A DNA stretch of 53,390 nt from the NCBI GenBank assembly GCA_900319975.1, contig ONQP01000005.1:1-53390 (forward strand). The letters run 5' to 3'. The translations under genes and the position numbers were made by a program. Shown here one piece after another: positions 31,231 through 34,008 of the stretch; the first letter of the stretch is position 1, and each line of letters starts with the position of its first letter. The stretch comes from an uncultured Bacteroidales bacterium (GTDB taxonomy: Bacteria; Bacteroidota; Bacteroidia; Bacteroidales; UBA932). The notes under the pieces were generated by a model, which saw only the letters and a list, made by a program, of their open reading frames with translations, did not search any database and had not been told where the DNA came from.

Positions 31231-34008
31231 ATGAAACTTTTCCTCATCGACGGCCACGCGCTCATCTTCAAGATGTATTACGCCTTCCTGGGGCGCCCGA
31301 TGGTCAACTCGCAGGGGGTCGACACCTCCATCCTGTTCGGATTCACGAAATACCTGCTCGAACTGATCGACCGGGAGCGGCCGACGCACATCGCCGTGAG
31401 TTTCGATCCGCCGGGCGGGACGTTCCGCAACGAGCTGTATCCTGCCTACAAGGCCAACCGCGGGGAGACGCCCGCGCTGGTGATCGCCGCGCTGGAGCCG
31501 CTGACGCAGATCGTGGAGGCGCTGGACATCCCGGTGCTGATGATCCCGGGCTTCGAGGCGGACGACGTGATCGGCTCCGCCGCGCGGCGCTTCGAGGCGG
31601 AGGGTTTCGAGGTGTGGATGGTCACGCCCGACAAGGACTACGGCCAGCTGGTCTCGCCGCATGTCCGGCAGCTCAAGCCGGGCAAGAGCGGCGGCGAGAA
31701 CGAGCTGCTGGGCGTGGCGGAGGTCTGCGACAAATGGAAGATCTCCGCGCCCGCGCAGGTCATTGATATATTGGCGCTCTGCGGCGACGCCTCGGACAAC
31801 GTCCCGGGCGTGCAGGGCGTGGGGCCGGTCGGCGCAGCGAAGCTGCTGGGCAAGTACGGCTCCGTCGAGGGGATCTACGAGCACCTCGGCGAGCTGACCG
31901 CGCGCCAGCAGGAGCAGTTCCGCGCGGCGGAGGACCACATCGCCCTGTCCAAGCGGCTGGTCACCATCAAGACCGACATCCCGCTGGACGTGACGGCGGA
32001 GCAGCTCGTCTACGACACCGTCGAGACGCCCGAGCTGACCGCCCTGTTCGACCGCTACGAGATGCCCTCCCTGAAGCGCCTCCTCAAGAAAGTCTCCGTT
32101 TCAAACGCTGCTGATTCGGATTCTGCCGGAAGGCCTGCTGCCTCCGAAAACGTCCTGCTGCGCAGGACCCCTCCCACTTCCTGCGGAAGCGGGCCCCTCC
32201 CTCTTACGGAGCCGACTCGAAGAGGAAATATCCCCTGGAAGGGGATCACAGGGGTTAGAGAACAAGCCAGCTTGCTGGCTACGGTTTCCGGAGGCAGCAG
32301 CCTTCCGGACAATGAATCCGAATTAAAGCTTGATAAGCTGACGATTAAAGAGATTAAAGGGAAGAAGATAGCGATTAACCTGCAAGGGGAGAAACTGTAT
32401 GTGGCGACGGAGGCGGGGGTGGCAGAAGGGGCGCCGGAAGACTTCCGGGTGCTGCTGGAGGACGCCGCCGTCGTGAAGGCCGGCGCCGACCTCAAGGCGC
32501 AGGCCAACGCCCTGGCCGCCCGCGGCATCCGCCTGGCCGGCCGCCTCGAAGACATCGCCCTGATGCACTATCTCCTCGGCCCCGAACGCAGCCACAAGAC
32601 CGACGTCCTGGCCCGCAGCTACCTCGGCGTGGAGCTGGAAGCCGCCGGCCCCGCCGACACCGGCTCCCTCTTCGACGAACTCCCCGACGACAACGGTCCC
32701 GACCGCGTCCTGGAGACCGCCGCCATCCTCCGCCTGTCGGACATCCTCCTGCAGGAAATGGCCGCCACCGAAGGCATGCAACACCTCTATGACGACATCG
32801 AAGAGCCCCTCATCGGCGTCCTGGCCCGGATGGAACAGACCGGCGTCAAGGTCGACCTCGGGTCGCTCCGCGACTTCGCCGACGGCCTCCGCCGCAAGAT
32901 GGTCGAACGCGAAGCCGAAGTCCGCCGCCTCGCCGACGATCCGACGCTCAACATCCTGTCACCCAAGCAGATCGGCGTCGTCCTCTTCGAGAAACTCAAC
33001 CTCGACCCCAAGGCCCGCAAGCCCAAGTCCGGCAACTGGCCCACCGACGAACAGACCCTCTCGCACCTCGCCGACCGCAGCCCCATCATCGACGCCATCC
33101 TCGACTACCGCGGCCTGCGCAAGCTCCTTTCCACCTACATCGAACCCTTCGCCGGCTACATCTCCCCGAAAGACGGCCGCGTCCATACCACCTTCAACCA
33201 GGCCCTCACCTCCACCGGCCGCCTGTCCTCCTCCAACCCCAACCTCCAGAACATCCCGGTCCGCACCGAAGAAGGCCGCGAGATCCGCAAGGCCTTCGTG
33301 GCGGGCGAAGAAGGCTGGGTGATGATGTCGGCCGACTACTCCCAGATCGAGCTGCGCCTGATGGCCCACCTGAGCGGCGACGCCCACCTCGTGGACGCCT
33401 TCCGCCATGGCCTGGACGTCCACGCCGCCACCGCTGCCAAGATCTTCCGCATCCCGCTCGAAGAAGTCACGGCCGACCAGCGCCGCATCGCCAAGACGGC
33501 CAACTTCGGCATCATGTACGGCATCTCCTCCTTCGGCCTGGCCGAGCGCCTGCGCTGCCCGCGCAGCGAGGCCAAGCAGATCATCGACGACTATTTCGCC
33601 TCCTTCCCCTCCATCCGCGGCTTCATCGACGCCACCGTGGCGCAGGCCCGCGAGCGGGGCTATGTAGAGACGCTCTTCGGGCGTCGCCGGTATATCGCCG
33701 ACATCGGCGCCGGCAACGCCGCCCTCCGCGCGCTCGCCGAGCGCAACGCCGTCAACGCTCCCATCCAGGGCACGGCGGCCGACATTATCAAACTGGCGAT
33801 GATCGCCGTGGACCGGCGCCTGCGCGAAGGCGGCTTCCGGGCCCGGATGGTCCTCCAGATCCACGACGAACTCCTCCTCGAGGTCCCGCAGGACGAAATC
33901 GCGCCCGTACGCGACCTGCTGGTCCACGAAATGGAAAACGTCATCACCCTGTCCGTCCCCCTGACCGTAGAATGCAATGATGGAAAAACCTGGCTTGAAG
34001 CCCATTGA
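31231..34008 (+). CDS. polA: DNA polymerase I with an in-frame palindromic insert and degenerate 3'-5' exonuclease domain
   Basis: DNA polymerase I, used in repair and Okazaki fragment processing; 925 residues. Residues 1-285 are the 5'-3' exonuclease, with FEADDVIG, TPDKDYG and GDASDNVPGVQGVG. Residues about 295-364 are an unusual linker encoded by a structured inverted-repeat DNA segment. Residues about 370-520 are the 3'-5' exonuclease fold, but the usual DTE-type motif is replaced by IAINLQG and the KYD motif by LKAQ, so proofreading is probably lost. The polymerase domain is intact: motif A DYSQIELR (Asp702), motif B RRIAKTANFGIMYG, and motif C QIHDE (His878, Asp879). Codon preference shifts from GAG/CCG to GAA/CCC after the linker. 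It overlaps the following sigma factor gene. Confidence 0.95.
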   Translation: MKLFLIDGHALIFKMYYAFLGRPMVNSQGVDTSILFGFTKYLLELIDRERPTHIAVSFDPPGGTFRNELYPAYKANRGETPALVIAALEPLTQIVEALDIPVLMIPGFEADDVIGSAARRFEAEGFEVWMVTPDKDYGQLVSPHVRQLKPGKSGGENELLGVAEVCDKWKISAPAQVIDILALCGDASDNVPGVQGVGPVGAAKLLGKYGSVEGIYEHLGELTARQQEQFRAAEDHIALSKRLVTIKTDIPLDVTAEQLVYDTVETPELTALFDRYEMPSLKRLLKKVSVSNAADSDSAGRPAASENVLLRRTPPTSCGSGPLPLTEPTRRGNIPWKGITGVREQASLLATVSGGSSLPDNESELKLDKLTIKEIKGKKIAINLQGEKLYVATEAGVAEGAPEDFRVLLEDAAVVKAGADLKAQANALAARGIRLAGRLEDIALMHYLLGPERSHKTDVLARSYLGVELEAAGPADTGSLFDELPDDNGPDRVLETAAILRLSDILLQEMAATEGMQHLYDDIEEPLIGVLARMEQTGVKVDLGSLRDFADGLRRKMVEREAEVRRLADDPTLNILSPKQIGVVLFEKLNLDPKARKPKSGNWPTDEQTLSHLADRSPIIDAILDYRGLRKLLSTYIEPFAGYISPKDGRVHTTFNQALTSTGRLSSSNPNLQNIPVRTEEGREIRKAFVAGEEGWVMMSADYSQIELRLMAHLSGDAHLVDAFRHGLDVHAATAAKIFRIPLEEVTADQRRIAKTANFGIMYGISSFGLAERLRCPRSEAKQIIDDYFASFPSIRGFIDATVAQARERGYVETLFGRRRYIADIGAGNAALRALAERNAVNAPIQGTAADIIKLAMIAVDRRLREGGFRARMVLQIHDELLLEVPQDEIAPVRDLLVHEMENVITLSVPLTVECNDGKTWLEAH
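32113..32322. repeat. Palindromic, multi-hairpin element inserted in frame in polA
   Basis: The outer arms are 32113-32152 and 32282-32322. The reverse complement of one matches the other through the blocks GGAGGCAGCAG, CCTTCCGG and GAATCCGAAT, with small gaps. Between them lie five further stems: 32152-32157 with 32163-32168, 32077-like CTTCC at 32177-32181 with 32185-32189, 32200-32205 with 32220-32225, 32230-32236 with 32240-32246, and 32265-32271 with 32274-32280. Length is about 210 bases, exactly 70 codons, with no stop in the polA frame. The segment looks like a mobile palindromic element or the footprint of one. Confidence 0.75.

Follow-up and report, generated by a model that had tools for sequence, protein, structure and literature searches.

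The question raised by this locus is why the gene for DNA polymerase I in an uncultured Bacteroidales bacterium contains a palindrome that is read through in frame. In the window, by which we mean the whole stretch of 53,390 nucleotides analysed here, a sequence-only reading had placed a palindromic element of about 210 bases in frame within polA, between the 5'-3' exonuclease and an exonuclease-like domain. The frame and the position were both borne out, as the segment lies inside the open reading frame of polA and the Pfam domains 5_3_exonuc (residues 173-264) and DNA_polI_exo1 (residues 380-456, a match below the curated cut-off) fall on either side of residues 291-368, which are therefore a linker. 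Using an alignment that included 23 relatives, AlphaFold2 gave pLDDT values below 50 for residues 293-362 with high values flanking them; values below 50 were also obtained at 473-487, 660-663 and 920-925.

The palindrome itself also held up, although its size had to be revised to about 233 nt. The ungapped inverted arms are 32124-32151/32284-32311 (28 nt, 79%), 32114-32123/32314-32323 (10 nt, 100%) and 32126-32134/32300-32308 (9 nt, 100%), and when gaps are allowed they merge into the single pair listed in the table, the score of which was equalled at none of 2000 random window positions tested with the same spacing. The predicted RNA fold of 32104-32330 has an energy of -124.2 kcal/mol, whereas 200 dinucleotide-shuffled versions average -79.8 (sd 4.75) and none is as low (z -9.35); the DNA fold of the same segment gives z -10.1. 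The stems at 32230-32246 and 32265-32280 that had been noticed in the sequence-only reading are both present in the predicted RNA fold.

Features of the palindromic element and its host gene in the window
Feature	Coordinates	Strand	Basis
polA, DNA polymerase I, 925 aa, host gene	31231..34008	+	ORF; Pfam 5_3_exonuc_N, 5_3_exonuc, DNA_pol_A
Whole palindromic element (PolA residues 291-368)	32101..32333	+	gapped arm alignment; RNA/DNA folds of 32104-32330; AlphaFold2 pLDDT <50 at 293-362
5' arm of palindrome	32101..32151	+	inverted-repeat search; gapped arm alignment
Core hairpin 1 (GTCCTGC/GCAGGAC)	32152..32168	+	fold; stem covaries among seven copies
Core hairpin 2 with two conserved CCCCTCCC blocks	32169..32201	+	conserved in copies; stem covaries
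CCCTC, pseudoknot 5' strand conserved in other copies	32199..32203	+	covariation in 67 other copies; window sequence
Hairpin 3 (AGCC/GGCT), loop enlarged in window copy	32210..32280	+	read from sequence
61-nt extra segment in hairpin 3 loop, with own small stems	32216..32276	+	no listed own-genome match within
3' arm of palindrome	32284..32333	+	inverted-repeat search; gapped arm alignment

If the palindrome were an ordinary low-complexity linker, it should be confined to this gene and shared by its relatives. That explanation is ruled out by the presence of dispersed copies in the same genome together with the linkers of relatives, which differ whether or not they contain the element. Sixteen places in the genome besides polA matched a covariance model built on the core, one of them being a second version of the site in trmH (on contig C124); the polA copy itself was unmatched. 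At least six genes carry a copy, namely polA, a PmbA/TldD metallopeptidase gene (tldD), ribF (FAD synthetase/riboflavin kinase), dsbD, a gene for a SpoU-type methyltransferase that we take to be trmH-like, and a further gene that matched no Pfam family at a threshold of 1e-5. The core lies in the sense direction in all six, as read from the sequences, and the gene copies sit close to domain borders defined by Pfam; the tldD copy may cut into the second domain, because the match to that domain starts at profile position 28. Judged from ORF lists, two of the eight copies fetched first are intergenic. Most copies are about 100-150 bp long. The additional length of the window copy comes from the extra segment in the loop of hairpin 3, which amounts to a net gain of 57 nt relative to other copies, a multiple of three. 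In a BLAST search of 32113-32322 against its own genome the strong matches span query positions 26-103 and others resume at 164, so the other copies are without the middle part of the window copy. The GAGGG partner of CCCTC is interrupted in polA, as read from the sequence, and because the extra segment splits this pseudoknot partner the window copy looks like a fossil, judging from its sequence. Enlarged hairpin 3 loops were also seen in a ribF copy (L070) and a tldD copy (L090).

By BLAST the element was found in 27 of 61 genomes, all belonging to one genus of Cryptobacteroides-like Bacteroidales (27 of 37 genomes there and 0 of 24 elsewhere); the relatives that bear names are uncultured bacteria of the rumen or gut, some of them called Candidatus Cryptobacteroides. 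The covariance model, applied with stricter filters than BLAST, was positive in 5 of 393 genomes of the order, our own included; the other four belong to one more genus of the family and to three other families, and the model-found copies outside the genus have paired flanking arms in most cases. Under the same stricter filters, the model found none in two genomes of the same genus and two of the same family. Copies were observed at contig ends (G004:C7, G004:C73, G011:C41, G023:C11 and G023:C20), as expected because near-identical repeats or strain variants break assemblies, and copy numbers are probably underestimated. Smaller repeats whose CCTTCCC core is related occur three times in near-identical form within one 18.6-kb locus (L198; at 3456, 5018 and 18372), and upstream of a tldD copy (L003, about 1440-1485) there is by eye an S2-like 5' half (CCCCTGCAAAACTTCGCTTC) that is perhaps the remnant of an older insert. 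Our literature search found no published description of the element.

The best conserved part of the element is its centre. In the seven copies compared first, at least one compensated change affects 23 of the 43 pairs that were predicted. For a larger alignment we used 67 of 94 sequences, which had been collected by a pattern fixing the pseudoknot CCC/GGG and part of hairpin 3. In all 67 distinct copies the hairpin 3 loop contains an NNGGG that can pair with a CCCNN strand, and three of these five pairs are invariant, forced by the collecting pattern; because the pattern fixes CCC and GGG, only the two variable pairs count as evidence for the pseudoknot. One of them occurs as UA in 42 copies, GC in 15, AU in 9 and CG in 1, and the next as CG in 43 and UA in 24. 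For the whole structure, 97.2% of cells are paired compared with 83.4% in shuffled alignments, and the covariation score is 0.391 compared with 0.128 (0 of 500 shuffles as high) and with at most 0.098 in slid versions. The number of pairs changed on both sides (6) and the number of further pair types (12) were not above the shuffles, 83 and 472 of 500 of which, respectively, were as high. On the strength of this covariation the core comprises two hairpins followed by a third that is pseudoknotted.

Whether this structure has been inserted into its host sites can be judged from orthologous loci. The linker of trmH measures 57-96 nt in six short orthologues and 152-276 nt in ten filled ones (18 loci, L137 without a row), and that of ribF measures 90-102 nt in seven orthologues and 222 and 276 nt in the filled ones (11 loci, with L079, which holds the element in an open frame, without a row). 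In tldD the element is present in L086-L088, another variant occupies L090, and L089 and L095 are empty. These comparisons cover the loci that carry the anchor motif, which is absent from 6 of 17 ribF and 9 of 17 tldD loci, and two more tldD rows were not comparable; for dsbD the comparison is less clear. Outside genes, one site lies between a pair of divergently oriented genes, of which we take the right-hand one to be epimerase-like from its N-terminal motif. This site is filled in 4 of 30 fetched loci (one of them, L334, missed by the script and read by eye), and the same gene pair has by eye neither core nor these arms in 9 loci. Two loci at this site (L336 and L344) have short unrelated inverted repeats. 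A second intergenic site is filled in 2 of 30 loci, the query genome included; among the relatives that are empty here, L376 retains 10 bp identical to the inner arm found where the site is occupied, so that loss is possible in that case. Since relatives without the element exist at trmH, ribF, tldD and two intergenic sites, the element is an insert. Insertion into a pre-existing hairpin, or the copying of an arm from the flank, is not supported at the two intergenic sites and is possible elsewhere.

The trmH site of our own genome is informative in a different way. Contigs C97 (L002/L036/L121) and C124 (L405) overlap by about 470 bp at this site, where their flanks agree at about 130 of 130 bases on one side and over about 218 bases with about six differences on the other. 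C97 holds an S1 core and C124 an S2 core, and the arms are different as well. Most likely the sampled population contained both versions, or a close strain had entered the bin; misassembly is the lesser reading. The occupation of one site by two different elements implies that turnover is fast. Another repeat type (TCATTCCGAGC...GAAGGAATC) was seen in the same linkers, in L132 (trmH, 183 nt), L080 (ribF, 159 nt) and L052 (polA), and in genome G006. The linkers of these genes behave as though they accept any in-frame repeat.

Comparison of the loci thus establishes, at the level of sequence, a dispersed palindrome that some orthologous sites have and others lack, and that usually keeps the frame when it lies in a gene. 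The explanation that we regard as probable is a small, non-autonomous, MITE-like mobile element with no gene of its own. The sequence-only reading had proposed that the in-frame palindrome might be mobile, and this proposal is supported by the dispersal, the presence and absence at orthologous sites and the replacement at trmH, rather than by an observed event or a known enzyme. Its movement would depend on factors acting in trans, and the form that moves would probably be single-stranded DNA or RNA, folded and recognised through the core. Insertions into genes would survive if their length were a multiple of three, their frame open and the site a tolerant linker, and PolA would therefore carry a disordered insert. 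Where the element lies in the joint between two domains, it is probably read straight through and adds no more than a floppy stretch to the linker.

Near-identical cores can have unrelated arms, which is not what one would expect if the whole unit simply transposed, and this observation counts against the favoured explanation. Over 108 copies the arms have a mean length of 24.8 nt and are 93% self-complementary, yet among 92 copies from 11 genomes with at least three copies each, the identity between copies is 59% for arms compared with 51% for shuffled arms and 72% for cores. Among 39 within-genome pairs of cores that are at least 95% identical, 15 have an arm identity below 0.6, and two copies in G007 that are both perfectly paired (self-complementarity 1.0) have arms that are only 22% identical. 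Conversely, polA arms that are identical at 21 of 23 positions hold either an S1 core (L148) or an S2 core (L150), and arms equally alike hold S2 in opposite orientations (L150 and L155). Because similar cores have unlike arms and near-identical polA arms hold different cores, core and arms are partly uncoupled. Fast compensatory drift of the arms is not seen, since among 143 arm pairs in four close orthologous pairs, one-sided changes (12) outnumber compensated ones (3), with 119 pairs unchanged, 2 broken by changes on both sides and 7 with gaps. Capture of arms from elsewhere in the genome likewise found no support in the one arm searched in G007 (61% complete), for which only the partner arm was found in full.

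A possible, though in our view rather doubtful, alternative is that the unit that moves or is exchanged is the core of about 70 nt. It would enter or be swapped at the apex of a hairpin, or recombine between copies, and the arms would either belong to the locus or arise afresh with each insertion through fold-back (template-switch) synthesis. Besides the arm and core combinations and the mostly one-sided arm changes given above, this alternative draws on the hairpins with small loops and no core that occur, beside others with a core, among the 41 long inverted repeats in 1.28 Mb around polA loci (1 was found in one Markov null). However, the empty relatives at the two intergenic sites are by eye without arms too, and at the trmH site of our own genome core and arms changed together, so that the whole element was exchanged there. 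In addition, an inner consensus is recognisable by eye in the arms of the window's clade, the within-genome arm identity slightly exceeds that of shuffled arms, and gene conversion among old elements could account for some of these combinations. In its fullest form, in which the pseudoknotted core would be an independently moving cassette that acquires newly made, perfectly paired arms with each copy, and genes would offer fixed docking sites at which elements are swapped within a population, we give this idea a similarly small chance. If it were true, the inverted repeats would be a product of insertion and not an inherited part, which would be a distinct mode of transposition. In template-switch evolution of hairpins, as described in one report, a single event can create or repair perfect stems (PMC8794818); that is a mutation process, and the Bacteroidales palindrome differs from it in being an element.

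It is unlikely that the palindrome is instead a functional regulatory RNA, such as a terminator, attenuator or mRNA-stability hairpin, that is kept by selection and occasionally captured in genes. The strong covariation would be expected of such an RNA, and many copies lie outside genes: a crude codon score placed 61 of 98 scored elements (of 108) in the category other, with 18 in the same frame and open, 12 in the same frame with a stop and 7 in a different frame with a stop, although this score mixes adjacent with interrupted genes, labels dsbD as antisense and was left unused for the claim about frame. The unrelated hosts, the two orientations, the presence and absence at orthologous sites and the copies in coding sequence all argue against selection for one regulatory role, and two Rfam covariance-model scans of 16 loci gave no match to the element. 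The three Rfam matches in these loci, all outside the cores, were two weak snoRNA matches and a TPP riboswitch, which directly adjoins an element copy (L275, 1120-1216).

Membership in a REP/RAYT system we judge to be improbable also. With PF01797, HUH/Y1-like matches were obtained in 18 of the 37 genomes searched in this genus, in 16 of 27 with the element and in 2 of 10 without it (Fisher p 0.06), and intragenic REPs, including some in DNA polymerase I, have been described (PMC3733652). Nevertheless, 11 of the 27 element-bearing genomes, our own among them, have no HUH match at threshold (the genomes are incomplete), and none of 20 fetched HUH places (2.6-5.0 kb each; the ORF shown for L327 is not HUH-like) holds the core. 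With no physical link between the two at these places, an HUH transposase is an improbable partner of the core, and the search for an autonomous parent element, made with PF01797 alone, found no link to the element. Two HUH places have their own short palindromes on either side (L313, 1324-1371 and 2478-2521; L332, 1826-1863 and 2927-2964), and these may possibly represent a separate REP/RAYT system. Size and tag differ as well: GTAG/CGTC REPs are 20-40 bp long and carry a GTAG or CGTC tag (PMC3733652), whereas the element, mostly 100-150 bp, has no constant tetranucleotide tag. By eye, CGTC adjoins hairpin 1 in S1 copies (L002, L003) and is absent there in S2 copies (L028, L032). What the two have in common is that both are palindromes with intergenic as well as intragenic copies, the latter also in the gene for DNA polymerase I.

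The remaining evidence concerns how the insert is read. Fourteen of 80 named polA loci have a detected core; in 13 of these the frame stays open as far as the polymerase motif, and the remaining one lies on a contig that ends within the ORF. Of the 66 loci without a detected core, 59 are open, five are on contigs that end in the ORF and two are broken. The broken ones are L144, with a degenerate element missed by the core pattern, and the fragment L203. The pattern also missed L141, L143 and L157, the first two of which hold the element, and L157 shares flank matches with the element-bearing L043. L203 and L183 both bear the name Tb.RUG.525, and in the second contig the polA frame ends near a hairpin and runs into another gene; we note in passing that recombination or misassembly at a palindrome could account for the break. 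The frame is open in 10 of 11 filled trmH loci, the exception being the C97 version of our own genome, in which the two halves of the gene do not share a frame (in C124 they do), and it is kept in both measured filled ribF loci. The out-of-frame C97 version and the broken L144 count against the keeping of the frame. The element itself is read in at least two frames in our own genome and in both orientations, the reverse one in polA of relatives. Of the three sense frames, an average of 2.12 are open in the 32 copies of the window's clade compared with 1.41 in resampled sequences, and 1.82 compared with 1.46 in 76 other copies, seven of which have no open sense frame. The simplest reading of these sequences is that the insert is probably translated and not removed, because removal from the message would not require the frame to be kept. 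Removal as an intron or bypass by the ribosome, for which the C97 version of trmH could be cited, is accordingly very improbable and is ruled out as a general explanation by the frames kept in 10 of 11 trmH, 13 of 13 assessable polA and 2 of 2 ribF loci.

Palindromes that encode protein are best known from Rickettsia and Wolbachia. The comparison with the Rickettsia palindromic elements (RPE) that the sequence-only reading had drawn is sound as to the kind of element and fails as to membership, as no single peptide is kept. Three reports describe RPE palindromes as about 105-150 bp long, located in frame in unrelated protein genes and also between genes (PMC2229807, PMC10969869, PMC4224334). 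Most copies of the Bacteroidales element resemble RPE in forming a palindrome of about 100-150 bp with a long stem-loop (the window copy is longer), and the element resembles both RPE and Wolbachia palindromic elements (WPE) in being a palindrome that lies in frame within genes as unrelated as those listed above. Unlike RPE, they use more than one frame and both orientations and encode no constant peptide. Set against published descriptions of RPE and WPE, they also differ in belonging to another phylum, in their often copy-specific arms and in having a covarying pseudoknot as their core. Bacterial MITEs such as Correia, ERIC and RUP are likewise small, non-autonomous and dispersed, with terminal inverted repeats and known in-frame fusions (PMC2229807). 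In these respects of size, dispersal and lack of autonomy the MITE-like mobile element that we favour agrees with them. The terminal repeats of a MITE are as a rule common to its copies, whereas here the centre is best conserved and the arms are little alike between copies. We know of no MITE or REP in which a conserved pseudoknotted core is divided in this manner from arms that are often specific to the copy.

A comparable protein-coding palindrome is now at hand in gut Bacteroidales, a group with hundreds of sequenced species, so that its gain, loss and replacement can be traced site by site, even where two versions of one genome have been assembled together. Because core and arms are divided in this way, the question of how palindromic arms originate can be put to the test. 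The element also shows how the linkers of housekeeping proteins can grow and change through the insertion of repeats.
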